Of a stretch of 34,946 nucleotides of DNA, positions 2,235 through 33,457 are shown one piece after another. A program made the translations under genes and the position numbers. This DNA is from a virus. Under the pieces are notes generated by a model that saw nothing but the letters and a program-made list of their open reading frames with translations, was not told the DNA's origin and did no database searches. Each line of letters begins with the position of its first letter. Within the stretch, counting starts at the first letter, position 1. The stretch spans positions 1 to 34,946 of the IMG/VR virus record IMGVR_UViG_3300032820_000049; one strand, written 5' to 3'.

Positions 2235-2261
2235 TGCCGACGCGCACCAAGCGCGTCGGCA
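2235..2261. other. perfect inverted repeat, 11 bp stem, 5 base loop
   Basis: TGCCGACGCGC, loop ACCAA, GCGCGTCGGCA. It sits just upstream of the resolvase-like gene (start 2223), in its leader. There is no T-run on either side, so it is not a canonical terminator. It could be an operator or an RNA structure covering the start. Confidence 0.8.
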
Positions 2262-2263
2262 AT

Positions 2264-2459
2264 AGACTTGGATCTAAGATCTAAGAACCGAGGTTGGGGG
2301 AACCGAGTCTTAGGATTGGTCATTGGAATGGAAATTCCGTTTTCCCCTCCCATATTCTGGAAATAAAAACCCCCCCTCTTGGGGGGGTTTTATTTCCAAT
2401 GAGAGAAGGGGCGTTCTGAATTCCAATAATCCAATCAGATCCAATCATTGGAATGAGTT
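2264..2459. other. 196 bp intergenic region around the early terminator
   Basis: No gene seen. Besides the terminator it holds an exact 11-base direct repeat, TCATTGGAATG, at 2320-2330 and 2445-2455, with related ATTCCAAT copies between. Tandem GATCTAA/GATCTAAG and two AACCGAG copies lie at 2272-2315. A leftward promoter for the resolvase-HNH-TerS group should lie here, but I cannot point to convincing -35/-10 boxes. Confidence 0.6.
2359..2397. terminator. strong bidirectional intrinsic terminator
   Basis: Seven C pair with seven G around a TCTT-type loop. The stem is continued by an A-tract (5 A) against a T-tract (4 T) and by GGAAAT against ATTTCC. The A and T tracts on the two sides make it work in both directions. 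It lies 62 bp beyond the stop of the PP-loop ATPase gene, so it most likely ends the leftward early transcript before the late genes. Confidence 0.88.
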
Positions 2460-3269
2460 TCATACCCCGCACATTCCCTCGCACTCATCGTTAAACATCG
2501 CCAGTTGGCCCCTATCTTCTGGCGTAGCAAAATCAGCATCAGTCAGAGGCACATGACTCCTGTGGAGATAGAGTTTTTCTTTGGTCCCTCGCACCCCATC
2601 CCGTATCATCTCGTCGATTTTAACGGCACTTTGGAAATCTTCTGGATGATTGTTTTTAAGATCACTCCATTCTTTGTCAGAGTGGTAGGGACAAAATGTG
2701 CAAGCTGACCGTCCCGGTTCTGGATAGCCATTCTTTTGCATCCATCCCAAGCAATCCAAACGCCTCATTCTGTTATCAACGAGAGGCCATTCATGCTGAA
2801 TCCAGTGTTCTCTTGAAGGCTTCATGCGGATACTCTCATCCAATGAAATACCTATGTATGAAACAGCTAGTATTTTTTTCGGCGCTTTCTGACGATATTT
2901 GAGGCCAACTAATTCCCTGATTTTCCTCGTCAGAGGCTTGAGTTTGAACTCCCTCGTACACTGGCGGCGCAACAGCCCCCCCCCACTGATGCTTTCTGTG
3001 AAAAATGGAACGCTGACAAATTTTCCATCTTCCAGGTTTTCAGTGATGCTTTCCTGTAAGCCTTCTTTGTGCATCACTCGATGGACAGGAAAAGGTAACT
3101 GGGTTTCCAGCCAATCCAGCCAATCATAAACATACTGTGGTTCTGCCCCTGTATCGGCAAAGATAGCCGCGTCAGGCATCGGCGTTAATTCGCCTTTGGC
3201 AAACATCAGGGCCATTGTGCTGCTTTGCACTCCAGCACCCAAACTAACAATATGAATGGGTCTACCCAC
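2460..3269 (-). CDS. PP-loop ATP pyrophosphatase, PAPS-reductase-like family
   Basis: The product has 269 aa. The N-terminus has the PP-loop SLGAGVQSS (residues 9-17), the phage variant of SGGxDS, followed by FADTGAEP. Cysteines at 104 (RRQCTREFKL), 173, 190 and 193 (SACTFCPYH) could bind a metal or Fe-S cluster. The family adenylates substrates; relatives reduce PAPS (CysH), modify DNA sulphur (DndC) or act in base modification. The exact substrate here is unknown. The start is GTG 3269, overlapping the primase stop by 8 bases; no ATG precedes the PP-loop. The DNA is visibly richer in A/T than both neighbours, which suggests recent acquisition. Confidence 0.78.
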   Translation of the reverse strand: MGRPIHIVSLGAGVQSSTMALMFAKGELTPMPDAAIFADTGAEPQYVYDWLDWLETQLPFPVHRVMHKEGLQESITENLEDGKFVSVPFFTESISGGGLLRRQCTREFKLKPLTRKIRELVGLKYRQKAPKKILAVSYIGISLDESIRMKPSREHWIQHEWPLVDNRMRRLDCLGWMQKNGYPEPGRSACTFCPYHSDKEWSDLKNNHPEDFQSAVKIDEMIRDGVRGTKEKLYLHRSHVPLTDADFATPEDRGQLAMFNDECEGMCGV

Positions 3270-5016
3270 TCCAGTTCACCCGGTGTTTTTCCTGAACCCT
3301 GACCCTGGTGGCGCGGCGGTCGCCGTCCTTATCAATGTGCGGGTGCGAGTAGATTTCCTGCCTGATCTTCTTTGCGGTAGCCTTGTCGATCTGGAGCCCC
3401 AGCTCGGTAGCCGATTCCGCAATCATCGCGTTCATCTCGTGTGTCGTCGTCCAATGCTCCTCTCGCTGCGCAAGCGCACGCAGGAGGCGCACTGTGAGCT
3501 CTGGATGGTTCTCTGCCCCGAAGGGGCGGAAGCGCATCGTAGAGGTGTGCAGGGCGACGAGGCGGTCGTCCACTCGTGGACCATTGCGCAACGAGAACTG
3601 TAGACGAATAGCGCCGCTGTTGTCGGTCGTCATCAGGATGCCAGAATCAAACCAGCCGCTCTTAGAGCCGCTGCCGCGGATCCCGTCGAACCCGTCATCA
3701 GATTTGGTGCCCTTGCGGGTGTGATCCACCAGCATGACTGCTGGTGGATTCTCAGTACCCAATTCGCCGGCATCGACTAACAGATTAAGCATCTTTAAGA
3801 ATGGCAACAAGTCGCTGGTGCTGTTCTCCTCACCGGCGAAATAATTTTGAAACGGATCGATGGCGATTATCGTGGGCTGATGCCGGCGAAAGAGTTCCTG
3901 CATCCGCTCAAAGTTGAGCATCAGGTCTACATCACCCCGCTCAGTCCAGAGAAAGTTCTGCTCGATCAGTGCGCGTTCATCCTCAGAGAATGACGAGTAC
4001 AGCGGAAGTATTCTGCTTGCGACGTAGGGACCGCGAATCTCAGCCTGAAGCCACAGAACCTTGTGCGGTTGGTTCCATTTCAGCCCCAGCCATTCACCGC
4101 CAACCGCGGCCGTAGTCAGCGCCTCCAGAACAAGCTGACTTTTTCCGATCTTCGGTGCGCCGGCTACGAAAATACGGGCACCTGAGAAAATGAACCCATC
4201 GCCCAGGAATTCTGGTGGGCGTTCCTCCTTCAGTCGGAACGCGTCTGAAATTGACAGCAGCTCAATCGGGCGGTCCTGGCGCTTGGGAGCCCAGCCCTTG
4301 GCCCTGGCCCCGTCGATCATGGTCTTGACATCCGCAATGGTCTGCGAGTCGGTCCATCCCTGCTCCGTGAAGCGCACGCACTCCCTCATAATTCTCTCGT
4401 TGGAATAGCCCAGGGCAACGCATCTGGCCGTCCATGACAGCACCGTGTTGCGCCACTCAGTGCCATTGCCGGCGGTCCCCCGGTTCCTACGAGAATCGAT
4501 GGCCTTGATGTGACCGCGGTCCAGACCGGGCAGATCTGCGAAAACGTGGAAGTCCTCGTCGTCCTTCCAATGCCACTCATACCCGTTGCCGGCCACAATG
4601 ACATAGCCTCCGAATGATCGAACGTCGACGCCGGCACCCGCCGACACCGTCACCTCATTGGGCATCGATGAGTAGAACCAGTGTTCGCCGCCGTTCTGAG
4701 TCGTCGCTGTCAGTGGCGTGAACGGGAGGTGCTGTTTCGCCCAATCCACGACAGACTCATCGTGGTGCGTGTCCAGATCGACGACACTAAATGGTCGCCC
4801 CGTCAACGCCCCCCAATAACATTTTGGAAACTCGGAGAACCAGTTCTCCAGGTCACTCTCTCGTGGTTGGCGGCGCTGGTAGCTTTTCCAGCTCACCAAG
4901 GACTTTTTGTCCTTTGAGCATGGAATCAAATGCACATCGTGTTCGGTTGCGAGTTCGATGACCGCCTCTCTGACGGCGGGCTCTGATTTGGGTCGGGTCA
5001 GTAATATCAGCCCCAC
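3262..5016 (-). CDS. bifunctional prim-pol / RecA-like replicative helicase
   Basis: The product has 584 aa. The N-terminal domain (about residues 25-165) matches the prim-pol fold: VVDLD (D80, D82), GGEHWFY (H112) and DVRSFGGYVIVAG. The C-terminal domain (about 275-480) is a RecA/AAA_25-type ATPase: Walker A GAPKIGKS (286-293), Walker B IIAID (383-387) and DHTRKG. The protein probably primes and unwinds the phage origin; archaeo-eukaryotic-type primases can also polymerise. Start GTG 5016, overlapping the HTH gene by 10 bases; no earlier ATG is in frame. A perfect 11 bp stem-loop (3724-3749) is built into the ATPase part. No DNA polymerase gene accompanies it. Confidence 0.88.
   Translation of the reverse strand: MGLILLTRPKSEPAVREAVIELATEHDVHLIPCSKDKKSLVSWKSYQRRQPRESDLENWFSEFPKCYWGALTGRPFSVVDLDTHHDESVVDWAKQHLPFTPLTATTQNGGEHWFYSSMPNEVTVSAGAGVDVRSFGGYVIVAGNGYEWHWKDDEDFHVFADLPGLDRGHIKAIDSRRNRGTAGNGTEWRNTVLSWTARCVALGYSNERIMRECVRFTEQGWTDSQTIADVKTMIDGARAKGWAPKRQDRPIELLSISDAFRLKEERPPEFLGDGFIFSGARIFVAGAPKIGKSQLVLEALTTAAVGGEWLGLKWNQPHKVLWLQAEIRGPYVASRILPLYSSFSEDERALIEQNFLWTERGDVDLMLNFERMQELFRRHQPTIIAIDPFQNYFAGEENSTSDLLPFLKMLNLLVDAGELGTENPPAVMLVDHTRKGTKSDDGFDGIRGSGSKSGWFDSGILMTTDNSGAIRLQFSLRNGPRVDDRLVALHTSTMRFRPFGAENHPELTVRLLRALAQREEHWTTTHEMNAMIAESATELGLQIDKATAKKIRQEIYSHPHIDKDGDRRATRVRVQEKHRVNWSG
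3724..3749. other. intragenic perfect stem-loop, 11 bp stem, 4 base loop
   Basis: ATCCACCAGCA, loop TGAC, TGCTGGTGGAT, inside the prim-pol/helicase gene. No T-run follows. One of the set described in the findings. Confidence 0.9.
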
Positions 5017-5210
5017 AGGTCGGGCCTGATGTCAGACCGATCCAAACCAAGAACTCCCGCTAATTCGATTGCTCGATGCGGGGGAATCCCGCCGGGGAGT
5101 TCACGCCATCGGTATACCGAGTTGCGCGAGATTCCAAGATCTCGCGCAACTTGCGTGACCGTGTGATTTGTAATTGCGTTCCATACATCAAGCGGGATAG
5201 CACCGGGCAT
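5007..5210 (-). CDS. Cro/YdaS-like HTH regulator
   Basis: The product has 67 aa. A helix-turn-helix is clear at about residues 17-36 (TVTQVARDLGISRNSVYRWR). It is followed by the family's typical ending PPHRAIELAGVLGLDRSDIRPDLWG, as in YdaS/Cro-like phage regulators. First gene of the leftward early transcript, facing the recombination operon across a 320 bp control region, so it probably represses one or both divergent promoters. ATG 5210. The recognition-helix codons form a perfect 13 bp stem-loop (5121-5152). Confidence 0.85.
   Translation of the reverse strand: MPGAIPLDVWNAITNHTVTQVARDLGISRNSVYRWRELPGGIPPHRAIELAGVLGLDRSDIRPDLWG
5121..5152. other. intragenic perfect stem-loop, 13 bp stem, 6 base loop
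   Basis: AGTTGCGCGAGAT, loop TCCAAG, ATCTCGCGCAACT, inside the Cro-like gene. It could be an RNA element or an operator within the gene. Confidence 0.9.
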
Positions 5211-5598: not shown

Positions 5599-6394
5599 CG
5601 GGACCAACGGCGTTGGTAAATCCACCTGGGCATCTGAAATGCCGAATCCGCTGTTTGTCGATCTTGAGGGAGGCACCAACGAACTGGACGTTGCCAGACT
5701 GAGGGTCACGACTGAGGCGGCATTGCTGGATTTGTGTCATGAGTTACTTGAAGCAGAGCACGACTACAAAACTCTGGTCATAGACTCCCTCGATTGGCTG
5801 GAATCGGCGCTCCAGAAATCAGTCGTGCAGGAGCATCAAAAGAAAGCGCCTGGACTTGAGGAAATTTCCGACATTCAATATGGGCGCGGCTATGCCCACA
5901 CGGCAAAGAAGATGAAATCGTTGCTGGAGCTTTTCAACCAGCTCACTGAGCTGCGCAAGAATCCGATGCGGATTTGTTTGATCTGCCATACCCATGTCAT
6001 CAAGATTCAGGATCCGCTCATCGATGACTACGACAAGATCGCGTTGAAGCTGCACAAAAAGTTCGGCGATCTGACCAAGGAGTGGTGCGACTATCTTCTG
6101 TTCGCAAACTTCAAAATCAGGGTATCTCAACGCGGTGAGGGATTCAGCAAAACCAAACAGGCGCGAGAATCTTCTGATGAGCGTGTGCTGTACACCCGCG
6201 GATCAGGACCATTCGACGCAAAGTCCAGGCGCGACATTTGCGACCCCGTCACCGGCGACCATGAACTCCCGATGGTGAAGGGACACGGATGGGCATCCTT
6301 TAACGACGCGTACAACGCGTCGTTCTCTGAGACTCAAAAACTCAAAAAATCCACCAAACCCAAAATAGTGAAAACGGAGAAAATCGATGAATAA
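5531..6394 (+). CDS. Sak4-like RecA-fold ATPase (single-strand annealing/recombination)
   Basis: The product has 287 aa. Walker A GTNGVGKS (24-31), Walker B TLVIDSLD (81-88) and the CHTHV strand (about residue 153) fit the AAA_24/Sak4 group of short phage RecA paralogues. These proteins work with a phage ssDNA-binding protein in homologous annealing, and exactly such a gene follows with an 8-base overlap. The C-terminus is lysine-rich and flexible. ATG 5531 is chosen over the in-frame ATG at 5513 because a GAGGAG ribosome site sits 7 bases upstream of it. A perfect 10 bp stem-loop lies near the 3' end (6302-6324). Confidence 0.85.
   Translation: MANIVLDQITKGPRRRPQRIIISGTNGVGKSTWASEMPNPLFVDLEGGTNELDVARLRVTTEAALLDLCHELLEAEHDYKTLVIDSLDWLESALQKSVVQEHQKKAPGLEEISDIQYGRGYAHTAKKMKSLLELFNQLTELRKNPMRICLICHTHVIKIQDPLIDDYDKIALKLHKKFGDLTKEWCDYLLFANFKIRVSQRGEGFSKTKQARESSDERVLYTRGSGPFDAKSRRDICDPVTGDHELPMVKGHGWASFNDAYNASFSETQKLKKSTKPKIVKTEKIDE
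6302..6324. other. intragenic perfect stem-loop, 10 bp stem, 3 base loop
   Basis: AACGACGCGT, loop ACA, ACGCGTCGTT, 70 bp before the end of the Sak4-like gene. Confidence 0.9.
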
Positions 6395-6914: not shown

Positions 6915-8064
6915 TCCTGACGATCTTCTGAGAGCAATCTTTGATGTTCAACGCCGGCCTCATGGCCGGCGTACTTATTTGGGCGGCAGTTCATTGGCGA
7001 GGGAGTGCCCGCGTGAACAATGGCTTTCGTGGCGATGGTGTCTGAGTCCCATCGCCGATGATAATAAAACGCGGGTTTTCTCCCTCGGCCATTTGCTTGA
7101 GGATCATGTCGCAAGCATGATCCTCAAGGTTCCCTCAGTGAATTTGCACACTGAGGAACGCGGGTCACAAATCGGCGGCAGTATGTTCGCCGGTCATGTT
7201 CAATATCACGTTGATGGAATTCTGGAGCTGCCGCTGCTCGGAGGTGTTTATCTCTGGGAGGCCAAGTCCGCCAAGTCAACGCGGTTCAATAAGCTGGTGC
7301 GAATTTCCGAGGCCATTGCCAAAGAGCGCGACTCGATGAGCCGAGTCGAAATAGAGGACGCGCCGCAGCGCAGCGCGTATTCTGAATGGGATTCGACCTA
7401 CGCCGGTCAGGTTCAATTTTATATGGGAGCCTTGCGAGAACAGCGGCACAGCAAAATAGAATCAGCGTGGGTCACCGTCTATAACAAGAACACCAGTGAG
7501 ATTTATTCTGAGTTGATTCCGTTTCGGCCAACTGAATACGAGACGATCAAAGAATCCGCTGCGTGGATCCTCGGACTCACCGCACCGCCGCCGGGGCAAT
7601 GGGGAGCGAGCGCCTATCAGGTCAAGAATTTTATGGACGCCGACACGCGCGGCGTCTACCTCGGAGAACACCCGCCCCTGCATCCTAATTGCCGAAACTG
7701 TCGATTCTCCCAGCCCATCGTCAACGACGGTGACCAGGGTGAGTGGGCTTGCCGATTTCACAAGAAGAAGCTGACCATCAGGAATCAGAAAGAGGCTTGC
7801 CCGGATCACCAGTGGATTCCCGAACTGGTCGGTGCTGAGAGGTTGCCGGCGGGGTTGTCTGAGACAGCACCGGCGTCGTACAAAACGCCCCAGGGCGACA
7901 TTGTTCAGAACGTGAGTGAGTCCAGCGGATCACATAAACGCCTAGCGTTTACATCACACGAGATAGCGTTTCTGGCGCGTAACGATTGGGATTTGGGGTC
8001 GGCGAAAACGCTGTCCGAGATTCGGACAGCGTTTGGCGCCAGTTACGATTCGGACGAATCGTAG
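6892..8064 (+). CDS. PD-(D/E)XK exonuclease, Cas4/RecB-like, with four-cysteine cluster
   Basis: The product has 390 aa. The nuclease core shows D108 (HVDGILELP) and E123-A-K125 (LWEAKSAK), with GQVQFYMGAL as the RecB motif-like helix after it. C39 (ARECPREQ) together with C267, C270, C287 and C303 forms the split cysteine set seen in Cas4/AddB-type nucleases that hold an Fe-S cluster, so an iron-sulphur enzyme is plausible. It would resect ends for the Sak4/SSB pair. Start ATG 6892 (alternative 6901) overlaps the upstream gene. The gene carries an extraordinary number of perfect stem-loops (6951, 7096, 7133, 8006, 8044 and smaller ones). Confidence 0.82.
   Translation: MIAMTVHSPDDLLRAIFDVQRRPHGRRTYLGGSSLARECPREQWLSWRWCLSPIADDNKTRVFSLGHLLEDHVASMILKVPSVNLHTEERGSQIGGSMFAGHVQYHVDGILELPLLGGVYLWEAKSAKSTRFNKLVRISEAIAKERDSMSRVEIEDAPQRSAYSEWDSTYAGQVQFYMGALREQRHSKIESAWVTVYNKNTSEIYSELIPFRPTEYETIKESAAWILGLTAPPPGQWGASAYQVKNFMDADTRGVYLGEHPPLHPNCRNCRFSQPIVNDGDQGEWACRFHKKKLTIRNQKEACPDHQWIPELVGAERLPAGLSETAPASYKTPQGDIVQNVSESSGSHKRLAFTSHEIAFLARNDWDLGSAKTLSEIRTAFGASYDSDES
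6951..6972. other. intragenic perfect stem-loop, 9 bp stem, 4 base loop
   Basis: ACGCCGGCC, loop TCAT, GGCCGGCGT, near the 5' end of the nuclease gene. Confidence 0.9.
7096..7128. other. intragenic perfect stem-loop, 13 bp stem, 7 base loop
   Basis: CTTGAGGATCATG, loop TCGCAAG, CATGATCCTCAAG, inside the nuclease gene. An 8 bp stem (7133-7156) follows within five bases. Confidence 0.92.
8006..8034. other. intragenic perfect stem-loop, 13 bp stem, 3 base loop
   Basis: AAACGCTGTCCGA, loop GAT, TCGGACAGCGTTT, close to the 3' end of the nuclease gene and ten bases before the palindrome shared by the two convergent stops. It may act as a transcription or RNA-decay barrier, but there is no T-run. 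Confidence 0.92.
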
Positions 8065-10040: not shown

Positions 10041-10904
10041 TTAATGGGTGGATGGTGTACGCAAAATCTTTACCCACCGTTGCTTCGGTGCCGTTGATGA
10101 TGTGGTGTTTCTTTGCCGCGATGGGCGGTTCCATGAACCGCCCTTGCTAGGTGGCCCGTCCTTTTTCCATCTTGCGTATTGGAGCGATATTCCAGACTCA
10201 AAGTCTGCATTTGTGTAGGTGATGATTCTATTAAAGCCTCTAGCCCTAGCCGTATCCGCTGCCGTGTTATATCCCAAGCTCGCCGCTTTCCAGGTTAGGT
10301 GGCGGTCCAAGTCATGGTTTAGGCAAAGACGATTGACCTCAACCACCGTCGTGTGATCGATCTGTCGTGCGACAGGACGCCCAACCCAAACAACTCCAAT
10401 CACCTCTGGTCCGTTGCGGATTGCATGAGCCCACTTCCATCCAGCAGGAGGGCCATTGTGTCGATGGTGCTCACGGATGAACTCTTGTGCATCTTTCTGC
10501 CTAAATATTCCAGAGTTCCACAACTCATCGTTAGAGAACCCGCCGAGGGTTTCAACGCTCAGACCGTAATCTGCTTTCCACGGCTCATCGAAAGCCAGCG
10601 GGTCATTGAAAATACGCTGGACGCCCAGGTATTTTCCAAGGATGAGTTCAACTTTCGTATGTTGGGTAACCTCGGCAAATCCATACGCCTCCACGAGCCC
10701 TTGAAATTCCTCCTCCATTTCATCGCAGCAATTAGTGGTTATAAATTCAACGTGTCGGTCGGACTGATAACACCCATCCAAAATCTGAACGACATCATAT
10801 TCTGGCGCTCCGCAATATGGGCACTTGGGGCCATCAAAGAGCCCCTTTCCAATGGGCTTGTTGACCCAATCCCAATAGCCTTCTGTGGTGTCTGGCGCGT
10901 TCAT
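10041..10904 (-). CDS. XF1762-family (Mom/GNAT-like) protein with N-terminal cysteine domain
   Basis: The product has 287 aa. Residues about 140-245 show the XF1762 pattern: EHHRHNGPPAGWKWA, VIGVVWVGRPVARQIDH, VVEVNRLC, a helix AASLGYNTAADTARARGF, IITYTNADFESG and a final Trp. This family is related to the GNAT fold of the phage DNA-modification protein Mom. The extra N-terminal part (1-135) carries C28-P-Y-C31, C45 and C59-C60, a possible zinc site, followed by an unrecognised segment. A DNA-base-modifying or anti-restriction role is plausible from the family but not shown. A perfect 9 bp stem-loop (10123-10143) lies near the 3' end. Confidence 0.68.
   Translation of the reverse strand: MNAPDTTEGYWDWVNKPIGKGLFDGPKCPYCGAPEYDVVQILDGCYQSDRHVEFITTNCCDEMEEEFQGLVEAYGFAEVTQHTKVELILGKYLGVQRIFNDPLAFDEPWKADYGLSVETLGGFSNDELWNSGIFRQKDAQEFIREHHRHNGPPAGWKWAHAIRNGPEVIGVVWVGRPVARQIDHTTVVEVNRLCLNHDLDRHLTWKAASLGYNTAADTARARGFNRIITYTNADFESGISLQYARWKKDGPPSKGGSWNRPSRQRNTTSSTAPKQRWVKILRTPSTH
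10123..10143. other. intragenic perfect stem-loop, 9 bp stem, 3 base loop
   Basis: GGGCGGTTC, loop CAT, GAACCGCCC, near the 3' end of the XF1762-like gene. Confidence 0.9.
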
Positions 10905-11252: not shown

Positions 11253-11441
11253 TCAGGAGTCGGCTGTCACCCGCTCGTCTGGAATGAACACGACAATCCC
11301 CTCACCATCGGGGTCTGCCAGTTCCGCAATGTGCTGTTCCAAAAACAGCACACGAGACTGAGCTCTGCGAAGATCCTCGCGTGATGCTGCCAAAGCATCA
11401 CGCATTGCCGAACAGCATTTACCGGGATCGGGTTCTGGCAT
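11253..11441 (-). CDS. small coiled-coil protein, 62 aa
   Basis: ATG 11441 (ribosome site GGGAAGAA) gives MPEPDPGKCCSAMRDAL, then a heptad-like helix (SREDLRRAQSRVLFLEQHIAEL) and a short beta-like end. A longer frame from 11495 exists but overlaps the preceding gene heavily. Two perfect stem-loops of 9 and 10 bp fall in this 189 bp gene. Function unknown. Confidence 0.6.
   Translation of the reverse strand: MPEPDPGKCCSAMRDALAASREDLRRAQSRVLFLEQHIAELADPDGEGIVVFIPDERVTADS
11330..11352. other. intragenic perfect stem-loop, 9 bp stem, 5 base loop
   Basis: TGTGCTGTT, loop CCAAA, AACAGCACA, in the small coiled-coil gene. Confidence 0.9.
11379..11403. other. intragenic perfect stem-loop, 10 bp stem, 5 base loop
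   Basis: GCGTGATGCT, loop GCCAA, AGCATCACGC, 27 bp from the preceding stem-loop and in the same small gene. Confidence 0.9.
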
Positions 11442-13338: not shown

Positions 13339-14655
13339 TTATGGCTGCTCCTCAAGCATAGGCATATACGGCAGCGGTTCTCCTGACACATCAGGAACTA
13401 GCATGAACTCTCTTTCCCTTCTTAACTCGTCTACCGTAGCCGTGTCCCCTCGTCTTTCGGCTGCTCTTATCCCTCTATCAATAGTACGATCTACCAGCCT
13501 CAAAGCTCTTTCCAAAAGAACCCTATTACCCTCAGTTGACTTGCCAATGTTAGCCTCTATAGATAGCAGTAATTGACCCTCTCTTTCCGTAAACTGAGCG
13601 CCGAATGTCGCCCTAAGTTGCGATAACACAGCCTTGCCAAGATTGTTAGAAAGCTCGGTTTCATCTGCTCCAGTGACCCCAAAGAAGTTCTTCACCGCTA
13701 GGGCAGCTCTGGGAAACCCACCTGTATCCACCAAGTGCGTCAACTCAATAGCCCTGACCAAGTTGGGCCTCGCATTGACCCCCGACCATGCGTCTTGAAT
13801 AAATAACGTATTTTGCCCCTCAGTAGATCTGCCGACCTCTGTCGCAGCGGCTACATCTTGGGCCTCTAGGGATTTCCGAATGCGTATCCCCTCGGCAGAG
13901 GCTAAATTGACCAGATTGCCTTCGGGATCTCTTAGGGTTGTTCCCCCTAGAGGATCAAACACCAGCGTGCCCTCTGCCCCATCAATGGTTCTCAAAGCGA
14001 AGCCGCGGGCTTCCAACCGTCCGCCACTCTCTCCCGATGGGAACTGGACGGTCCCGTCAGTCATTATCAGAGCAATGGTTCCATCCTCCAGAGTTTGGGT
14101 AGATTGAACTCTAGGCTCTAGCGATCCCGTTGCCGACGTCGCCCTAGATAGCTCTGGAAAAGCCGATCTTTGCGCCATTGTCACTTGGTCTGCCGGCGAG
14201 ACAATGTCCCAGACTGTTCGCTGTTGCGGGTTGAAATCCAGGGCATCAGGAATACCCACCATCGCCGCTTCCCTTCTCTCACGCTCTGCCATCGCCCGTT
14301 CTGTTTCCCTTATCCCCTGACGAGACTCCCACAACCCAGGCATCCACCTTTGGGTGAACGTCAAACTCTCTGGCTCGGCTACGGTAGATGCTACGACAGG
14401 AGGCATCTGGCCTCCTGTCGCAAACCCATTCAGACCCACAGCAATGAGCGCCTGTTCCTGCTCCGGGGTGAGCCGAGAGGGATCAACCGCCCGTCCAGAG
14501 ACAGCGCCGTTTCCGAGTCTTTGCGCGGAGCGGCGCGCTTGAAGCTGCGCCGGGTTGAAGCGACCCATCGAGCGCATATCCTGGCCAGAAACAGGTCGGC
14601 GCAACAAGCCGCCGCGCTGACCCGGTGTCAATGTGCGGAAAACATTCTCAGCCAT
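13339..14655 (-). CDS. virion-associated protein, 438 aa
   Basis: N-terminal polar part (1-150) with RRPVSGQDMRSMGRF and a TPEQEQALIA helix. It is followed by a beta-rich centre (about 180-260: EDGTIALIMTDGTVQFPSGE, TLVFDPLGG, DPEGNLVNLAS) and a helical C-terminus. It occupies the ejection-protein cluster and is likely packaged in the virion. Ribosome site GGTGAGGT before ATG 14655. A perfect 11 bp stem-loop (14394-14420) lies near the 5' end. Family not recognised. Confidence 0.6.
   Translation of the reverse strand: MAENVFRTLTPGQRGGLLRRPVSGQDMRSMGRFNPAQLQARRSAQRLGNGAVSGRAVDPSRLTPEQEQALIAVGLNGFATGGQMPPVVASTVAEPESLTFTQRWMPGLWESRQGIRETERAMAERERREAAMVGIPDALDFNPQQRTVWDIVSPADQVTMAQRSAFPELSRATSATGSLEPRVQSTQTLEDGTIALIMTDGTVQFPSGESGGRLEARGFALRTIDGAEGTLVFDPLGGTTLRDPEGNLVNLASAEGIRIRKSLEAQDVAAATEVGRSTEGQNTLFIQDAWSGVNARPNLVRAIELTHLVDTGGFPRAALAVKNFFGVTGADETELSNNLGKAVLSQLRATFGAQFTEREGQLLLSIEANIGKSTEGNRVLLERALRLVDRTIDRGIRAAERRGDTATVDELRREREFMLVPDVSGEPLPYMPMLEEQP
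14394..14420. other. intragenic perfect stem-loop, 11 bp stem, 5 base loop
   Basis: CGACAGGAGGC, loop ATCTG, GCCTCCTGTCG, in the 438-residue virion gene. Confidence 0.9.
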
Positions 14656-16844: not shown

Positions 16845-18319
16845 CGCCCCGCACCAGCCACCACATTAAGCCTCATATTTCCAACCCTCCAGTTACCCAA
16901 GACAGCACCCTCGACTCGGAACGCGACCTGGCGTCCCTGGAACCGCACAGACGTCGGATTTGTCATCGTGAACGGTCCATGAGTTGTCTCATCGCCATTC
17001 GGGTAAAAGCGCGTCTTAAATTTCGCCGTGACGTCGCCCTGCGTCGATTCATCTGGGATCAGGTTCGTCGCCACCATCATTCGGTCGCCCTGGCCAATCT
17101 TGATTGGCGCAGTCTCACAAAAAACAGTCGCCGAGTCGTAATCAAAACCGACCTCGTGGTCATATAGAATCCCGCCACTGTCGGTCATAAGCGGGTACAC
17201 AAACGCACCAGAATCACATCCCGCCGTTCTTGCTACCTCACCAACCATCCAGAAATTGTCCCTATAGTTCCAAGCGACGTACTTGTCGCACTCCAATGTT
17301 GTCTGTGATGGATAGAGCCACCAAATCTCCGAATACTCAGAATTGACCACGGCGTAAACCTTGCTCCGTTGCGTCAGGTTCATATCGTGGAAAACATAAT
17401 CGCCAACGGAGCTCGGCAATGACCTGACCGCGCCGCCGTCATAGATAAAGAACGAATTCAGACCCATCCACACCGCAAATTGGTCCGCAACTGCACACGC
17501 ATTTGCGGACACTGTTCCGCAACCATTGCCGACTTTCTGGAACCCGTAGACATAGGGCGGACCAGCGTAGGTGGCTGCGTGCGCATCGATGTCAGTCAGC
17601 AAAAGCGTTTGACCACGCACTCTTTTCCCGTCGATCAGGTTGCCGGCGGTCTGCAAAGTGAAGTCGCCAGCCTGGTTTGTCGCTGCCGGCGTCCAGGTGT
17701 TGTTGGCCTCCTGGTCTGACCAACTGATCTTGTTGCCCACCCCGCCGGCACCCAATGCAAAAACGATCCGCTCCTCGGTCACGACCATCGCGGTACAGCT
17801 TGTCGGTGCGTTACTCAATACAGCCGCCACAACGGCTGTATTGAGTTGCCACTCGTAGATCTTCCCATCAGATGTTGCGCAACCCAAAAGATACTCCCCC
17901 CACGCATCCAGGCTCCAGGTGGTCGCCGGCGTGTAGACGCCCTGATCCTCGCGAGGGATGCCCCAAAATCCAGAGCCGTAAGTCACCCCACCAAAACCGA
18001 GGTTCTGAACCGCATCAGCAGCGCCAGCAGTAAAGCCGACCGGCGTTATGTCGCTAACGGTATCAGTCTGTGAAATGTGGTAGAGCTTGCTATGGGTGCC
18101 AGCGCCGACCCGGCGAACTGCGGAATTATCCTTCCAGGGCAACAACGCTCGACACACGCCGGTCATTGCCGACGTCGTGCGAGCTCGCCATCCATAAACT
18201 GGCTGCATGATTGCATCTCGCCATCTGACGAGATTGCCGTCACTCCAATACCCGGTGGCCTGGAGCGGCGTCCCGCCCTTCACGATTCCGGGCGGCATCG
18301 ATAACGATACTAATGCCAT
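16841..18319 (-). CDS. packaged-DNA stabilisation / tail hub protein (P22 gp10-like)
   Basis: The product has 492 aa. A beta-rich protein with the features of P22 gp10-type head-closure proteins: an N-terminal GGTPLQATGYWSDGNLVRWRD segment, repeated blades, and the central EIWWLYPSQTTLECDKYVAWNYRDNFW followed by RTAGCDSG, which corresponds to the conserved YP...N.Y..WNY...W part. These proteins plug the portal after packaging and carry the tail. A perfect 14 bp stem-loop (17813-17846), the longest in the window, falls in its middle. ATG 18319 overlaps the lysozyme stop. Confidence 0.75.
   Translation of the reverse strand: MALVSLSMPPGIVKGGTPLQATGYWSDGNLVRWRDAIMQPVYGWRARTTSAMTGVCRALLPWKDNSAVRRVGAGTHSKLYHISQTDTVSDITPVGFTAGAADAVQNLGFGGVTYGSGFWGIPREDQGVYTPATTWSLDAWGEYLLGCATSDGKIYEWQLNTAVVAAVLSNAPTSCTAMVVTEERIVFALGAGGVGNKISWSDQEANNTWTPAATNQAGDFTLQTAGNLIDGKRVRGQTLLLTDIDAHAATYAGPPYVYGFQKVGNGCGTVSANACAVADQFAVWMGLNSFFIYDGGAVRSLPSSVGDYVFHDMNLTQRSKVYAVVNSEYSEIWWLYPSQTTLECDKYVAWNYRDNFWMVGEVARTAGCDSGAFVYPLMTDSGGILYDHEVGFDYDSATVFCETAPIKIGQGDRMMVATNLIPDESTQGDVTAKFKTRFYPNGDETTHGPFTMTNPTSVRFQGRQVAFRVEGAVLGNWRVGNMRLNVVAGAGR
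17813..17846. other. intragenic perfect stem-loop, 14 bp stem, 6 base loop
   Basis: ACTCAATACAGCCG, loop CCACAA, CGGCTGTATTGAGT, inside the stabilisation-protein gene (protein WQLNTAVVAAVLSN). Longest perfect stem found in a gene. Confidence 0.93.
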
Positions 18320-19145: not shown

Positions 19146-19501
19146 TCACACTCCAAGAGTGCTGCGTCATAGGGGGTATTCGTCAATGCCTCGTATTGCG
19201 TCAGCAAACGGTTCAGCTCAGATTGCCAACTGCGCACGTTCGGGCTCCCAGAGCGGTTGCAAATTCTGGACACATACGACGCAATCTCTCCGCGAATTAA
19301 GATAATCATCACCGTGTCTAGTTGTTTGCCTTGCGCCTCCAAAATTTCTTGGGTTCTTGGGTGCATATCCAGTTCCAAGTGCTCTTTGAGCTCTTGGAAC
19401 TCGCCATAAAAAGTTCCTCCCAAGATAGCCACGGCAACCAGGGAAGCGAGACTCATCGAAATATTCCCGTACCCATCCAACATAAAACCGCTCAGATCCA
19501 T
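19142..19501 (-). CDS. membrane-anchored protein of the lysis region, 119 aa
   Basis: One N-terminal membrane helix (about residues 17-32, SLASLVAVAILGGTFYG) precedes a helical, partly coiled segment (EFQELKEHLEL, ...EILEAQGKQLDTVM) and a soluble tail with two cysteines. The position before holin and lysozyme and the N-in, periplasmic-helix layout would suit an i-spanin-like role, but no partner o-spanin is seen. A near-perfect stem (19371-19401) is built into the helical part. ATG 19501. Confidence 0.6.
   Translation of the reverse strand: MDLSGFMLDGYGNISMSLASLVAVAILGGTFYGEFQELKEHLELDMHPRTQEILEAQGKQLDTVMIILIRGEIASYVSRICNRSGSPNVRSWQSELNRLLTQYEALTNTPYDAALLECE
19371..19401. other. intragenic stem-loop, 9+4 bp with one T/T mismatch
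   Basis: AGTTCCAAG-T-GCTC, loop TTT, GAGC-T-CTTGGAACT. Nearly perfect 14-position stem inside the membrane-anchored protein gene. Confidence 0.85.
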
Positions 19502-23753: not shown

Positions 23754-23788
23754 ATAAAAAAGCGGAGAGAGGCTTTGCCTCTCTCCGC
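23754..23788 (-). terminator. intrinsic terminator after the capsid gene
   Basis: A perfect 12 bp stem GCGGAGAGAGGC with a 3-base loop, followed on the minus strand by TTTTTT. It lies 29 bp after the capsid stop, where phages often place a partial terminator to keep capsid expression above that of tail genes. Confidence 0.92.
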
Positions 23789-24816: not shown

Positions 24817-25890
24817 CTAGAGGAGCTGTTCCATCAGATCCACGGCATCGTCCAGCTTGCCCGTTTTCTGCAACTTTTGGTAAGAGCGTTTTTTGCGAAC
24901 CGAGGATGGTTTTTTGGTGCTCTTGGCACTACCAGGGCGAACGACCGTTTTATCCGTCGATGCTTTTTTCCTGGTTTTCTGAGATCTCTTAACACCGCGC
25001 TCATACAGCATCGAGTTCCTCGCCATTTCGATAAACTCAGGGCGGATCAATGCGGCAATCTCCTGTTCCGAGACACCTTTGTTCAGCAAGTACCTGGAGA
25101 TCTCCTCGGCCTCTTTCTGATAGACCGTGTCCTCACTCCAGCCTGGAATATCTCGACGAAGTTTTGCTCTGCCAGCGGCAACATAGTCACCGATTTTTTT
25201 CTGGTACTCATCAGCTTCAGCTTTTCTCAGCCTTTCGAGCTCGGAGTCCACAGCACTGAGCTGATCTTTCCGGGCCTTCTGCTGCTGGTCAAACTGTCGC
25301 TGCGCCAGCAAAACTTTCGTCTCGTTCCCAGGATCCTGCGCCAACAAGGCATCCCAATCAGGTTCCTCAGAATCCATCAATTCAATTCGTTTCCGCAGTC
25401 CGGGCAGCAGCTCGGCGTACTGCGAACGCTCTTGAGCCAGAGCGTTTCTCTCAGCATCAAACGCATTGCGTTCATTCAAAAGCGCGCCTTGATCTTCGTC
25501 CAGCGCACCACGGTCCTGAGAGAGCTTCTGGCTCTTTCTCGTGTAATTAGCTGTGCGGGAGTAGCCCTTGAGCAGTTCGTCCAGGTGGACCTCGTGTTCC
25601 TCGCCGTCAACCTTGACAGCGTATACGGGCTCCTCGACTAATTCCTCATCGTCTGCCTCCTCGCTCAACTCTTCGGTTTCGGCATCATTGGTAAGGGAGA
25701 GCTCTTCGTCCGAAGTGTCCTCTGCCTCTCTGTCCTCAACCGCTGGCGCGTCAATCGCGCCAGCTTCATCAGTCGCCCGTTTTTCGACTTGCGCCTGGTC
25801 AGGATTGTCCTTGGATTCCTGTTCCAGTTGCCTGTCCAGCAGAAAGCGCGCTGCTTCATTGATATCGATGGGTCCGCTAGGAGTTTCCAT
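24817..25890 (-). CDS. scaffold protein
   Basis: The product has 357 aa. Acidic N-terminal third (about 50-90), then the element PVYAVKVDGEEHEVHLDELLKGYSRTANYTRKSQKL common in scaffolds of this head type. A long coiled region (125-240) and a lysine-rich C-terminus (300-340) follow, which would bind the capsid protein. It sits between portal and capsid genes, the standard place. A perfect 8 bp stem (CTGGCGCG, loop TCAAT) lies in its 5' third. Ribosome site AGAAGGA. Confidence 0.85.
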   Translation of the reverse strand: METPSGPIDINEAARFLLDRQLEQESKDNPDQAQVEKRATDEAGAIDAPAVEDREAEDTSDEELSLTNDAETEELSEEADDEELVEEPVYAVKVDGEEHEVHLDELLKGYSRTANYTRKSQKLSQDRGALDEDQGALLNERNAFDAERNALAQERSQYAELLPGLRKRIELMDSEEPDWDALLAQDPGNETKVLLAQRQFDQQQKARKDQLSAVDSELERLRKAEADEYQKKIGDYVAAGRAKLRRDIPGWSEDTVYQKEAEEISRYLLNKGVSEQEIAALIRPEFIEMARNSMLYERGVKRSQKTRKKASTDKTVVRPGSAKSTKKPSSVRKKRSYQKLQKTGKLDDAVDLMEQLL

Positions 25891-29033: not shown

Positions 29034-31563
29034 GCGCCTCTCTCAGCCCTTCGATTCCTTTCTCCCAAAGAATCCTCCTGGCCTCCTGTATGTCATCGCG
29101 CAGCGGGAGGCCAGAGGACTCTGCAAACTCAGCGTCTCGCAACATATTCTGTCTGGCCTTCTGCCGCAATGCCGGCTCTATCTTGTCCCTGACCGCCGGC
29201 ACCGCATCCAGATCATCTAGGAATTTCGCAGTAGCCGCCCCCGAACCTGTCCCCTTTTTCCATAATGCTGTGAAATCAACATAACCCGTTTCGATGGCTA
29301 CCCGCTGATACGGAGTACCGAGTACGCTTTCAATCTCTTGGCCCAGACCGCCTTTCAACTCCCGTCCCAACGCCTCACCAGGGCTTGCCAGTTTCATCCT
29401 TGCAGCGCCGATTCCGCCTCGCTCTGCGTCAAACGCATCCGTTATCAGGTTGACGCCGTGACCGCTGTCAACTGCGAACATTCCATGCCGATTTCCAATA
29501 TCGGTGAACTTGCGCATTTCCGCACGAGTCGCAGCTCGATCCAGCGGGATATTGACCGACGTCCTCTGCCATGCCTGGGTCTGGCCATGTGGCAAAATGT
29601 AATGCCAAGCCGATGCGTCCTGGGCATCCACGAACGCAGTCCCCGCACTCACGCTATCGAGAAATTGTGTCGGCTCATCATGCAACATAGCGCCCACACG
29701 GTCGCCGAATGTCTGCCGACTGTTGTCCAGCATATCCCGCAATCTTGACCCCTCTGGTGGCATCGTGCCGCCTAATTCAGGATCCCACATCTTACGCGCC
29801 GCGTCTTCACTAAGACGGGGCGTGTGAGATGTCACCAGCGGGTAGTGCGCCATACCGAGGTTCTGTTGGTAGCGACCGGCCTCGTCAATATAAGATCCCA
29901 TTGCGCGTTCTGATGGCACTACTGGCCCCAACAGTCCGAGCGCGGTGTGCCTCCCAGTTACCTCGTCCACCCAGGTAGCCTCACGAGAATACGCATCGCG
30001 TAATTTCTGCCCGGTGTTTTCAATGCCGGTAAGATGGCCAGTGCGCGTCAATGATGCTCCGGGGATCTGCTCATCAATTACGTTTGCCATAAACCTGGGA
30101 GCTAACGTTCCGTAGTGCGCCGCGGCGTCTCTCGGATCTATTTCACCAGCCCGGATCTTTGCACCGCTCCAGGCCGCGGCTTGAGCCTGTGACGGCGTCC
30201 AAGCCGAATGGCCACCTACTTTGGCAACGTTTAAGCGGCGTACAATCTCCTCCATTTCGCGGTCCATGAACTCGTGCTGCGTCGGAGCGAACCCTCCGCT
30301 CCACGGCTTCGCAACCCGGAACCCGTCGCCGTCCTCGTAAACGCGCCCGGCGATCTTTCCCTTCCTGTCAGTGATAGAGAGCAGCGCCGCTGATCTGGTC
30401 GGATACACCTTGGCCGGCCGATGCTCGTAACCGAAAACTCGCCCCTGCCAGATGTCGTGAACAGGTTGGTGCGAGATGTCTGGATCCCATGCCACTCGTA
30501 AATTCTCGGCGAACGGGGCAACCTTAGAACCACCAGCTATTGGCTCGCCACGCCGAATCGCCTCAAGTTGCGGCCGCATCTTGTTCGGGAAACGCCCGGT
30601 ATTAATCATCGCGCCTACAGCGTCCTGGTTGAGCCCCTTCACGGTATGCAACAGGTTGGTCAGCACCCGATTGTCCGGGGAAGTCGCCGCCAACATTCGG
30701 ACCAGCTTCTCAGCTTCATCGACGTTGCTCGTAACCGACCGCGCCCAATCACTTGCATCCGCATACCAATTCCTGCCCGATAACCCCTCCACAACATGAT
30801 CTATGTAGTTCTTCCGCATCGTCTCCAGAGAACGAGGAGAGGCAATCCCCTTCGGGGCGCCTATATACTGGCCGGTGGCGGCACGCCGTGTACCGGCACC
30901 CGCATCGGCCGCTTCTTGATCTCGCAGCCTCCGGGCTGCGAGATCCTCGGTTACCTCACGAGTAGCCCTTCTGCCCTTAACCACTTGCGTCGCGCCCAGG
31001 CCACCAGGAAGCACCGTCGCAAGCGCGTCGATTTGCGGCTCATTCAGGTCGCCTGGGTGCCACGGAAGCAAGCTCAACGGATCGTCTAAAAGCTGCGTGA
31101 CCCCTCTCGCAAACTCCATGGGAGCGCGGTCAAGATACCCAGAGATAGGAGACGCGGCAGAACTTACAGCATCCCTCCAGCTCTGAGATAGCGGCACCGG
31201 CTCGGCAAACTCCCGCCGGTACTCTGGATCAGTGACGATGCCCTTGCCGAAATGCGCCGCCTCCGCAACGTCACCAGAAATCAATGGCTGGTATCGAGCA
31301 AACTCCAAAAGACCCGGCCCCAGATCAGCCGCCATTCCCGGCACATCACCAACCCTGGTACGCGACCCAGGCACAATCGGCACATCCGAAAAAGAGCGCC
31401 AGGCATCACCGGCCATATCCCTTAACCGAGGGAGAATAGCCCTGTCCCTGCTCTCCTGTTCCCTGTCTCTGATCTCCTGTTCCCTGGCTAATTGCCATGC
31501 GCGCCGGTCGGCCGGCGACAATGGAATATCATCCCGCAACAAACTGGGGAAATGCCGAGGCAT
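28930..31563 (-). CDS. large polyvalent-type virion protein, 877 aa
   Basis: N-terminus with QLAREQEIRDREQESRDR. About residues 240-470 contain NWYADASDWARSVTSNVDEAEKLVRMLAATSPDNRVLTNLLHT, then TGRFPNKM and HDIWQGRVFG, followed by WTPSQAQAAAWSGAKIRAGEID. This arrangement resembles HhH-glycosylase-like or nuclease-like domains found in phage polyvalent proteins. The rest is long and not recognisable. Proteins of this type are packaged with DNA and delivered into the cell. It lies between TerL and portal, which is unusual for an ejection protein. ATG 31563 overlaps the upstream stop (TGATG). A perfect 12 bp stem-loop is inside. Confidence 0.6.
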   Translation of the reverse strand: MPRHFPSLLRDDIPLSPADRRAWQLAREQEIRDREQESRDRAILPRLRDMAGDAWRSFSDVPIVPGSRTRVGDVPGMAADLGPGLLEFARYQPLISGDVAEAAHFGKGIVTDPEYRREFAEPVPLSQSWRDAVSSAASPISGYLDRAPMEFARGVTQLLDDPLSLLPWHPGDLNEPQIDALATVLPGGLGATQVVKGRRATREVTEDLAARRLRDQEAADAGAGTRRAATGQYIGAPKGIASPRSLETMRKNYIDHVVEGLSGRNWYADASDWARSVTSNVDEAEKLVRMLAATSPDNRVLTNLLHTVKGLNQDAVGAMINTGRFPNKMRPQLEAIRRGEPIAGGSKVAPFAENLRVAWDPDISHQPVHDIWQGRVFGYEHRPAKVYPTRSAALLSITDRKGKIAGRVYEDGDGFRVAKPWSGGFAPTQHEFMDREMEEIVRRLNVAKVGGHSAWTPSQAQAAAWSGAKIRAGEIDPRDAAAHYGTLAPRFMANVIDEQIPGASLTRTGHLTGIENTGQKLRDAYSREATWVDEVTGRHTALGLLGPVVPSERAMGSYIDEAGRYQQNLGMAHYPLVTSHTPRLSEDAARKMWDPELGGTMPPEGSRLRDMLDNSRQTFGDRVGAMLHDEPTQFLDSVSAGTAFVDAQDASAWHYILPHGQTQAWQRTSVNIPLDRAATRAEMRKFTDIGNRHGMFAVDSGHGVNLITDAFDAERGGIGAARMKLASPGEALGRELKGGLGQEIESVLGTPYQRVAIETGYVDFTALWKKGTGSGAATAKFLDDLDAVPAVRDKIEPALRQKARQNMLRDAEFAESSGLPLRDDIQEARRILWEKGIEGLREALKNGVVLPAVAGGMFVPLLSRQTQQNENELIRTI
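30918..30945. other. intragenic perfect stem-loop, 12 bp stem, 4 base loop
   Basis: GATCTCGCAGCC, loop TCCG, GGCTGCGAGATC, in the 877-residue protein gene. Confidence 0.92.
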
Positions 31564-31785: not shown

Positions 31786-31812
31786 TGATGATGCGCTCAA
31801 AGCGCATCATCA
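31786..31812. other. perfect stem-loop, 12 bp stem, 3 base loop, after the secreted-protein gene
   Basis: TGATGATGCGCT, loop CAA, AGCGCATCATCA, between the stop at 31815 and the next gene. There is no T-run on the leftward side, so an RNA stability element is likelier than a terminator. Confidence 0.88.
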
Positions 31813-31814
31813 AA

Positions 31815-32012
31815 TCAATCCACGATAATCGACAACACGCAGTTCTCATGCGCCGCAATCGTCAACGTGTACCGATCTGCACCGAACGCGTACACGCATT
31901 GCTGCGTCATGCCGGTCACTTCCATACTCACCAGAAAAGCGACGTTCTGAGCGAACGCCGAGTGCATGAAAAATAGCAATAAACCAATCAACAACTTCTT
32001 AGATGTACGCAT
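31815..32012 (-). CDS. small secreted/periplasmic protein, 65 aa
   Basis: ATG 32012 (TGATG overlap with the TerL stop) gives MRTSKKLLIGLLLFFMHSAFA, a textbook Sec signal peptide with AFA/Q cleavage at about residue 21. The mature 44 residues (QNVAFLVSMEV...) contain two cysteines (CVYAF and NCVLS) that could form a disulphide. A phage-encoded secreted protein in a terminase-portal cluster suggests action at the cell envelope, for example superinfection exclusion or a spanin-like aid, but nothing in the sequence proves it. A TTG one codon upstream is an alternative start. Confidence 0.7.
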   Translation of the reverse strand: MRTSKKLLIGLLLFFMHSAFAQNVAFLVSMEVTGMTQQCVYAFGADRYTLTIAAHENCVLSIIVD

Positions 32013-33457
32013 CAAACTATGCCCCTCACATTCCTCTTGATCGGCTGGTGCCAGCTCCCCGCCGCATGACGCCCGAACAACGCAACCGCCGCATCACCGG
32101 CGAACGTCAAACACAACGCATCCGCCCGGTCAGGACTCGGTAATCCCCTCTTTTTCATCGCATCCTTACTCTCAATCTGCATCTTTCCAGAGCTCGTAAA
32201 CTTGTACTTGGCCGCTACCAGTTCCGCTAGCAACAAATCATCCTTCGGAACACACACGTTGCGCGCCTCAAACCACGCCTTGGTCTTGAACCACAACTCG
32301 GCACGCAGATTCGCATAAGTGCCACCCATGCTCGGACTCTCACTGGTGTTGATCCCCACCACCGGCAACCCCAACTCCATCAACCGATCCGTTACGCCGG
32401 CACCAATACCGATAGAGTCAACCAGAATCTCCACCGGGCGCTCCTTCTGAGACAGCGCGTCATACTCCGCTTTCACCGCCCCAACGAGCTGCATCAAATC
32501 CAACTGCCGCCATACGCGAATGTCCTGCAATAAGCGCCCCTGGCGTTTAGCCAGGGCGCTGTACGCCGTCCCGAATCTCGCAACGTCCAATCCCCACACT
32601 ATGTTCGTGTCCCGGTCGACAACTACATCACGCTGCTGCGCAGACTCGACCAGATCCAACGGAATACAAGTGTCGTCGTCCGCTTCGGGGAACTCCCCCA
32701 ATACCCTCACGCGATAAACATTGGACTCCTCGCCATACCGGGAACGCATTTCATCGATGTACTCATCACTCACCCGCGGCGAATCCAGACAACTCACACG
32801 AGTTGTCCACCAGGAACTCGACAACCGATGATGCGTCTCAAAGAAGAACCCCGACGTTCTGGTCGGATTCCCCAGCAAAATCGTGACGGCGTTCTCGCCA
32901 GACATGGACCCCGAAGCAGCCTCAAAAACCTGTTCGGGTACGCCAGACGCCTCATCCGCAACCAACATCACGTTCTCCGAGTGAACTCCCTGGAGCGCCT
33001 CTGGCGTCTCAGCACGCGACGTTCGACAACTCATGAAACTCTCAGTCGGCGAGGCGCGCAAAAACACCCGGTCGGCCTTCGTCTCCAACAGCGTTTTCAA
33101 CACATCTGGCAACTTCTTGAGCCAGCGTTTCGTCTCAGCGAATAACGCGTCAAAGAGCTGCGCCGACGTAGGCGCAGTCACCACAATCTTGCACGGGTAT
33201 CGAGTCAGCAAAAACCAGAGCATCGCCCAGCTCGCCGCGGTGGACTTGCCAGTGCCATGCCCGCTGCGCACCGAGATACGCCGCTCACCACTGGCAACCG
33301 CCCGCAGGAAATCAGCTTGCCAGGGGTCGGGCTCGATGCCGATTACATTCTGAACGAACAACACCGGGTCGTTGCGGTATGTGGCAAGGAACTGGACGAA
33401 CGGGTTTTTCGCCGGTATGTGGAGCGGGTTCTTTTTTGGTTTGGCCTTTCTCGGCAT
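32012..33457 (-). CDS. terminase large subunit (TerL)
   Basis: The product has 481 aa. ATPase: Walker A SGHGTGKS (65-72), Walker B MLVADE (164-169), coupling LLGNPT (194-199). Nuclease: D291 (GLDVARFG), D347 (ILVDSIG) and the late SPDRADAL. It packages DNA into the prohead through the portal and cuts concatemers. ATG 33457 is chosen because residues before it (in a frame open to 33628) read poly-C/A-rich non-coding DNA, and GGTGG precedes this ATG. An 11 bp stem with one bulge (32533-32560) lies in the nuclease part. Confidence 0.92.
   Translation of the reverse strand: MPRKAKPKKNPLHIPAKNPFVQFLATYRNDPVLFVQNVIGIEPDPWQADFLRAVASGERRISVRSGHGTGKSTAASWAMLWFLLTRYPCKIVVTAPTSAQLFDALFAETKRWLKKLPDVLKTLLETKADRVFLRASPTESFMSCRTSRAETPEALQGVHSENVMLVADEASGVPEQVFEAASGSMSGENAVTILLGNPTRTSGFFFETHHRLSSSWWTTRVSCLDSPRVSDEYIDEMRSRYGEESNVYRVRVLGEFPEADDDTCIPLDLVESAQQRDVVVDRDTNIVWGLDVARFGTAYSALAKRQGRLLQDIRVWRQLDLMQLVGAVKAEYDALSQKERPVEILVDSIGIGAGVTDRLMELGLPVVGINTSESPSMGGTYANLRAELWFKTKAWFEARNVCVPKDDLLLAELVAAKYKFTSSGKMQIESKDAMKKRGLPSPDRADALCLTFAGDAAVALFGRHAAGSWHQPIKRNVRGIV
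32533..32560. other. intragenic stem-loop, 11 bp with one bulged base
   Basis: AGCGCCC-CTGGC, loop GTTTA, GCCAGGGCGCT, in the TerL gene. Confidence 0.82.

Follow-up and report, generated by a model that had tools for sequence, protein, structure and literature searches.

A virus genome with an excess of perfect hairpins. The 34,946-base sequence of an SU10-like podovirus, held as one IMG/VR virus record (IMGVR_UViG_3300032820_000049; this whole stretch is referred to below as the window), contains a real, strong and lineage-specific excess of perfect DNA hairpins, most of which lie in working genes. The excess is limited to short loops, is symmetric between the strands and is accompanied in close relatives by compensatory base pairs and by one inverted loop. 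We consider it probable, though well short of certain, that short-range template switching during replication wrote these hairpins and keeps rehomogenising them, at a rate which would be unusually high in this lineage.

The number of perfect stems is far above chance expectation

Scanning for perfect stems from 8 bp upwards, with loops of 3-10 nt, we found 28 of them: six of 8 bp, six of 9 bp, three of 10 bp, six of 11 bp, three of 12 bp, three of 13 bp and one of 14 bp, a distribution that is nearly flat from 8 to 13 bp. Stems of at least 9 bp were seen 22 times, against 1.06 in dinucleotide shuffles (maximum 5 in 300; loops 3-10 nt), and those of at least 11 bp 13 times, against 0.09. When synonymous codons were shuffled, with protein sequence and codon usage held constant, 0.87 stems of at least 9 bp (maximum 5 in 400) and 0.04 of at least 11 bp were obtained within genes, where 14 and 7, respectively, are observed. 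A preliminary description of this sequence, made by eye, had put chance at about one stem of 9 bp or more and below 0.1 of 11 bp or more; both kinds of shuffle bear these rough figures out, and the observed counts stand far above the synonymous shuffles. The many weaker stems that it mentioned are likewise in real, though smaller, excess (observed/expected 44/29 for 6 bp, 13/7 for 7 bp and 5/2 for 8 bp), and the surplus over synonymous shuffles declines smoothly from 5-bp to 14-bp stems. Stems with one mismatch number 7, with 0.4 expected, and none of them contains a G-U pair.

The excess depends on the loop. Loops of 3-7 nt account for 19 stems of at least 9 bp and loops of 8-30 nt for 7, and at 31-300 nt the count is 0.14 per loop size; it is thus specific to hairpin-sized loops and does not concern inverted repeats in general. 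Pairing past the stem ends is at chance level (56/231), so each stem is a discrete tract that ends sharply. Among stems of at least 9 bp, 14 of 22 lie wholly in genes (84% of the sequence according to the gene list) and 8 outside, and with 8 stems in about 5.5 kb of spacer against 14 in about 29.4 kb of genes, the spacers are about three times denser. Reading frames stay intact across the coding hairpins, where the proteins align with those of relatives without indels. T-rich tails accompany about 2-3 of the 22 stems, those at 2366 and 23762 being terminator-like. The hairpins are not significantly clustered along the genome, and no regular spacing was found.

Sixteen of the 18 positions named in the preliminary description are perfect stems of 9-14 bp (the one placed at 5121 begins at 5120). 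The remaining two proved to be different: the stem at 19371 has 13 pairs and one A.A mismatch, and that at 32533 is weak, with only a 7-bp perfect core at 32538. Missing from that description were the stems at 2366-2391 and 23762-23788 (both terminator-like), the one at 25742-25764 and the GGGAATTCCC cluster at 33798-33835. The individual elements are given below by their positions in the window, with the strand given as '.' in all cases; L003, L004 and L101 are contigs 93-96% identical to the window.

1792..1811, 8-bp stem, loop of 4 nt, in the RusA-like gene; a perfect 11 bp in L101
2235..2261, 11-bp stem, loop ACCAA, intergenic
2267..2285, stem of 8 positions with one A.C mismatch
2366..2391, 11-bp stem with T runs, terminator-like
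3724..3749, 11-bp stem, loop of 4 nt, in the PrimPol/AAA_25 gene
5120..5151, 13-bp stem, loop TCCAAG, between divergent genes
6302..6324, 10-bp stem, loop of 3 nt, in the Sak4-like gene
6951..6972, 9-bp stem, loop of 4 nt, in the Cas4-like exonuclease gene
7096..7128, 13-bp stem, loop TCGCAAG, in the Cas4-like exonuclease gene
8006..8034, 13-bp stem, loop of 3 nt, at the end of the Cas4-like exonuclease gene
10123..10143, 9-bp stem, loop of 3 nt, in the Mom-like gene
11330..11352, 9-bp stem, loop CCAAA, in the open reading frame (ORF) 11253-11495
11379..11403, 10-bp stem, loop GCCAA, in ORF 11253-11495
14394..14420, 11-bp stem, loop of 5 nt, in ORF 13339-14655
17813..17846, 14-bp stem, loop CCACAA, in the tail stabilisation gene
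18376..18401, 11-bp stem, loop of 4 nt, in the lysozyme gene
19371..19401, 13 pairs with one A.A mismatch, loop of 3 nt, in ORF 19142-19501
23762..23788, 12-bp stem followed by T6 on the - strand, like an ordinary intrinsic terminator
25742..25764, 9-bp stem, loop TCAAT, in the scaffold gene; identical in L004
27636..27657, 9-bp stem, loop CAAA (- strand), in the portal gene
30918..30945, 12-bp stem, loop of 4 nt, in the gene for an 877-amino-acid (877-aa) protein, 12 bp from a recombination breakpoint with L003
31786..31812, 12-bp stem, 3-nt loop, intergenic
32788..32807, 8-bp stem, loop of 4 nt, in terL
33798..33835, three-unit palindromic cluster GGGAATTCCC, intergenic; loop AAT/ATT in L101

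The hairpin density is lineage-specific

Stems of at least 10 bp number 16 in the window and about 0.4-0.6 per 35 kb in 1.94 Mb from relatives, which is a difference of about 25- to 40-fold. All of these 1.94 Mb hold 23 unique non-terminator stems of this length, and the loci sharing portal or tail genes (947 kb) hold 16, or 0.59 per 35 kb; none is present in T7 or in the closest named phages. In a comparison across phages at a threshold of at least 8 bp and loops of 3-7 nt, 25 stems were observed in the window with 2.45 expected. The closest named phages, MW202879 and MW805364, have 3 and 1, respectively (about 2.5 expected each), SU10 has 2 (4.4 expected) and 50 kb of E. coli 8 (3 expected). 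In T7 (L189; 39.9 kb) there were 0 perfect stems with 2.35 expected, a deficit that perhaps reflects hairpin avoidance.

At homologous coding sites in relatives of 60-75% identity, mostly 2-8 of the 8-14 positions are paired, and relatives at 65-75% protein identity are without the window's hairpins. An example is the 14-bp stem at 17813, which encodes LNTAVVAAVLS in the tail gene; relatives have LNTGAVAAVLS, and those at 55-66% identity retain the protein and pair just 3-8 of 14 positions. A separate observation concerns L106, a short contig (terL 67%, GC content 0.47) with perfect hairpins of 10 and 13 bp in its terL, at 977-1001 and 1861-1889. The 13-bp stem comes with one unusual residue, RYQFT for RYKFT, precisely where pairing requires it. 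High hairpin density may therefore have evolved more than once.

Close relatives keep the stems and exchange base pairs within them

The hairpins at 27636, 25742, 25425, 23762, 31786 and 33798-33835 are common to the window and to L003, L004 and L101, where these contigs cover them. As the contigs are independent and carry two sample ids, the hairpins are not an assembly artefact. The stems at 25425, 25742, 23762 and 27636 are unchanged in L003 and L004, which is uninformative, since local divergence there is just 1-7%.

The segment 2235-2391 has changed between the window and L101. At 2366-2391, the four differences present all fall into two base pairs, both of which are still paired. The stem at 2267-2285 has exchanged one pair (T-A/G-C) and, through repair of its mismatch, is perfect in L101; one base of the loop, itself part of a direct repeat of the arm, has changed in step with the arm. 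At 2235-2261, one pair is exchanged (C-G/T-A) and one is broken. There are thus four compensatory pairs in this segment (about 1.5e-5 under random placement). The preliminary description had named absence from all close relatives, with no compensatory change, as an outcome that would count against it; the stems are in fact present there, with such change. At 31786, the loop of L101 is exactly inverted (TTG vs CAA) and the arms are the same except for one T-A to T.G change. The inversion is found in L004 as well as in L101, and represents one locus.

Rewriting of one arm was assessed in six hairpins, and the 5' (sense) arm was the less conserved one in 6/6, although only the portal gene stands out. 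There, the left (5') arm has 26% nucleotide identity to relatives, against 61% in the background and 57% in the right arm (2.8th percentile), and the window protein reads RTRPKGRV where relatives have RRTPKGRV. Judging from this alignment, it is plausible that the 5' arm of the portal hairpin was replaced.

The hairpins most likely arise at the DNA level

Relative to synonymous shuffles, the folding gain in hairpin windows is 2.5 kcal/mol for the sense strand and 3.4 kcal/mol for the antisense strand. Coding hairpins are distributed among the codon phases as 7/5/2, in comparison to 21/9/27 for stems of 6-7 bp. In the commonest phase (7/14), third positions pair with each other and most pairs are fixed by the protein; just 2/14 coding hairpins are in the phase that is easiest to reach by synonymous change. 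Strand symmetry, sharp ends, lack of an internal G-U bias and the unsuited codon phase indicate a DNA-level process and not selection on mRNA structure, and we conclude that the process generating the hairpins most likely acts on DNA. Selection for structured transcripts, which the preliminary description had put forward and which could act through RNase barriers, translation pausing or attenuation, is accordingly disfavoured, and we regard it as unlikely. It would agree with the large surplus over synonymous shuffles, with the compensatory pairs in the intergenic hairpins of 2235-2391, with T-A to T.G changes (U.G in the sense RNA) at two loop-closing pairs and with the weak general surplus of local folding that genes show away from the hairpins (-0.41 kcal/mol per 40 nt). 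However, the antisense strand gains as much or more, internal G-U pairs are absent, the codon phase is the opposite of what synonymous tuning would produce, and the relatives at 65-75% identity do not share the hairpins.

A DNA-level origin leaves room for hairpins with a function of their own, and here the loops have to be taken into account. CAA or TTG occurs in 9 of 21 loops of long hairpins, with 1.7 expected (family-wise P 0.0004 for any trinucleotide, random placements; the bias was noticed post hoc, after inspecting the loops), and in 8 of these 9 loops CAA is on the + strand, regardless of gene direction. The bias is absent from the short stems of the window and from the non-terminator hairpins of relatives (3/23). 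A protein site is one possible meaning; points at which the polymerase pauses or switches are another. The arms are unrelated, as stated in the preliminary description; the loops, however, lean to CAA/TTG, and this lean is the one positive sign for the packaging or replication role proposed there. If a protein made use of hairpins formed in single-stranded phage DNA, e.g. as initiation sites for PrimPol/AAA_25 with CAA as a loop signal, this would account for strand-symmetric Watson-Crick stems with loops of 3-7 nt, for the CAA/TTG bias and its orientation and for compensatory changes that maintain the stems, and the phage does encode a PrimPol-AAA_25 protein. On the other hand, the arms have no sequence in common, orientation is not kept (L101 and L004 have the 31786 loop the other way round), relatives' non-terminator hairpins are without the CAA bias, relatives with similar virion genes are without the hairpins, and the spacing is irregular, which makes such a function improbable. 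We are also doubtful about a dedicated DNA-level system, in which the phage would encode hairpin writing or possess dispersed CAA-loop priming or protein-binding sites recognised by shape and loop and not by stem sequence. It seems very unlikely that intrinsic terminators, or ordinary regulatory stem-loops of another kind, make up most of the set: T runs on the - strand at 2366-2391 and 23762-23788 and the greater intergenic density fit this idea, but 14 of 22 stems of at least 9 bp are wholly in genes and only about 2-3 have T-rich tails, so that for the coding hairpins it is refuted. Hardly credible is an assembly or amplification artefact, or chance. The 150-nt end copies of the window contig are only 93% identical, which might point to faulty assembly, but the same hairpins recur in L003, L004 and L101 with two sample ids, frames are intact through the hairpins with proteins that align to relatives, and the probability of such an excess is far below chance.

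Two further candidates were tried and dropped. A repeat family of the repetitive extragenic palindrome or miniature inverted-repeat transposable element type, or of another type, was ruled out on the ground that no arm sequence is shared, and N4-type hairpin promoters on the ground that there is no shared stem sequence and the positions are scattered in genes.

Short-range template switching as the proposed origin

In the template-switch model, which also goes by the names quasipalindrome correction and sequence-directed mutagenesis, a short imperfect inverted repeat would be the place where a stalled nascent strand folds back or jumps to the sister strand; it would then copy one arm from the other and return. 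A single event of this kind could yield a perfect hairpin with a loop of 3-7 nt, and subsequent events might flip the loop, or might rehomogenise the arms and so produce changes that look compensatory. The effective rate in this lineage would have to be far above that of its relatives, and purifying selection would purge hairpins more from genes than from spacers. Several observations support such an origin, as the preliminary description had suggested among other causes: the 3-7 nt loop limit, the sharp stem ends, strand symmetry and lack of G-U among one-mismatch stems, the higher density outside genes, the favoured codon phase (wobble-wobble), which is the hardest to reach synonymously, the portal arm, and the four compensatory pairs together with the exact TTG/CAA inversion at 31786. 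The smooth fall of the excess from 5 to 14 bp is what one expects of a continuous generator.

Some results do not sit well with template switching. Of 91 difference clusters among close relatives, local copying of the reverse complement over at least 10 nt accounts for just one, an event that L101 and L004 both show; there is thus no mass of recent events, and switching is not rampant at present. Most hairpin births could not have been observed, because the dense region of 2.5-20 kb is without a close relative. In the other five arm pairs the sense arm leans the same way as in the portal gene, but not significantly, and neither arm significantly exceeds the divergence of its gene. The 32788 stem in terL, present in the window, is absent from L101; it was gained or lost through clustered differences that fall in three codons and are silent in the protein, and synonymous clustering of this sort resembles constraint on protein and pairing. 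The CAA/TTG enrichment is not predicted by a simple switching model. Just beyond the stem ends, G-U outnumbers A-C by 6 to 2, counts too few to weigh.

The cause of a high switching rate would be sought in the replication and nuclease set-up of host or phage: a host polymerase that primes from hairpins without inhibition, the loss of single-strand exonucleases, or the phage's own annealing and exonuclease genes might each be responsible. An effect of the host is plausible, as coding inverted repeats vary strongly among bacterial genera (PMC4060949). The hairpins are best explained as template-switch products in either case, be it through an unusual rate or, alternatively, through unusual retention.

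The genome and differences between close contigs

The portal, major capsid and adaptor proteins of the window match the SU10 families PF23899, PF17236 and PF24175, and other products are PrimPol-AAA_25, Sak4-like annealing, Cas4-like exonuclease, RusA-like resolvase, PAPS-reductase-like and Mom-like proteins. Megablast against phage records gave no DNA-level match. Searches with the Cas4-like, PrimPol and 588-aa proteins found no close relatives, the best relatives of the Sak4-like protein had only 35-36% identity, and a terL search of genome contigs returned only distant relatives (24-36%) and no clue to the host. Neither tRNA genes nor known RNA families reaching gathering score were found in the window.

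The window has a 150-nt end repeat (1-150 and 34795-34944) with copies only 93% alike, and L101 reads across the end junction; the record therefore probably combines more than one strain in the assembly of a permuted or circular genome. Beside the 2235 hairpin, L101 (160-1181, compared to window 2225-2264) carries an additional single-gene cassette of about 1 kb, flanked by copies of AATGTCTA, whose product has, by eye, a CxxxCxxC motif as in radical-SAM proteins. Conversely, 128 bp of the window (34415-34542), which contain a 9-bp hairpin whose loop has 10 nt, are absent from L101. In the 877-aa gene (window 28743-30957 vs L003:1804-2137), the first approximately 200 codons are kept and unrelated sequence then follows, about 12 bp from the 30918 hairpin; at its start (window 31523-31537), L003 and L004 have 368 bp absent from the window. 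On this sequence comparison, the gene is modular or recombined.

Relation to known systems

Template switching is normally seen event by event, and about 20 marks of it in a small genome, mostly in working genes, together with close relatives distinguished by loop flips and paired changes, would constitute a natural record of the process, bearing on its speed, on its loop size and strand preference and on the amount of protein that it rewrites. Clustered changes left by switching can be misread as signs of positive selection or of RNA structure with a function. If CAA/TTG marks pause or switch sites, or protein sites, it would offer a sequence handle on the places at which switching starts.

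The mechanism as such is known. Spacers of perfect repeats with arms of at least 10 bp and spacers of 2-5 nt are inverted by template switching in yeast genes (PMC8604942), complete spacer inversion is also documented in MIR633, and template switching is able both to create and to repair stems (PMC8794818); the association was first seen in yeast CYC1 and phage T4 rIIB (Ripley 1982, as cited in PMC7202029). In the literature, we found no record of template-switch hairpins at a comparable extent in a double-stranded DNA (dsDNA) phage, and the case is best explained by this known mechanism.

Among the closest parallels are quasipalindrome mutations of bacteria, T4 rIIB and yeast (Ripley 1982 and Dutra & Lovett 2006, both as cited in PMC7202029; PMC8604942; PMC8794818), which likewise turn imperfect inverted repeats into perfect hairpins, with short spacers, multi-base compensatory changes and exact spacer inversion in coding DNA. 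Those cases, however, are single hotspots or a small statistical excess, whereas the window has about 20 stems of 9-14 bp in 35 kb. Close inverted repeats of prokaryotes (Ladoukakis & Eyre-Walker, as reported in PMC4060949) are also in excess in coding sequence, and an origin in sequence-directed mutagenesis has been proposed for them; they are mostly of 6-9 bp and in small excess, whereas in the phage stems reach 14 bp and the excess ranges from tens of times to more than 100-fold. Finally, the mitochondrial coding palindromes of Nematomorpha (PMC6649704) resemble the hairpins described here in that many perfect inverted repeats are situated in functional genes with both arms compatible with the protein, but they reach 284 bp and are mitochondrial, whereas the window has stems of 9-14 bp with loops of 3-7 nt in a dsDNA phage.

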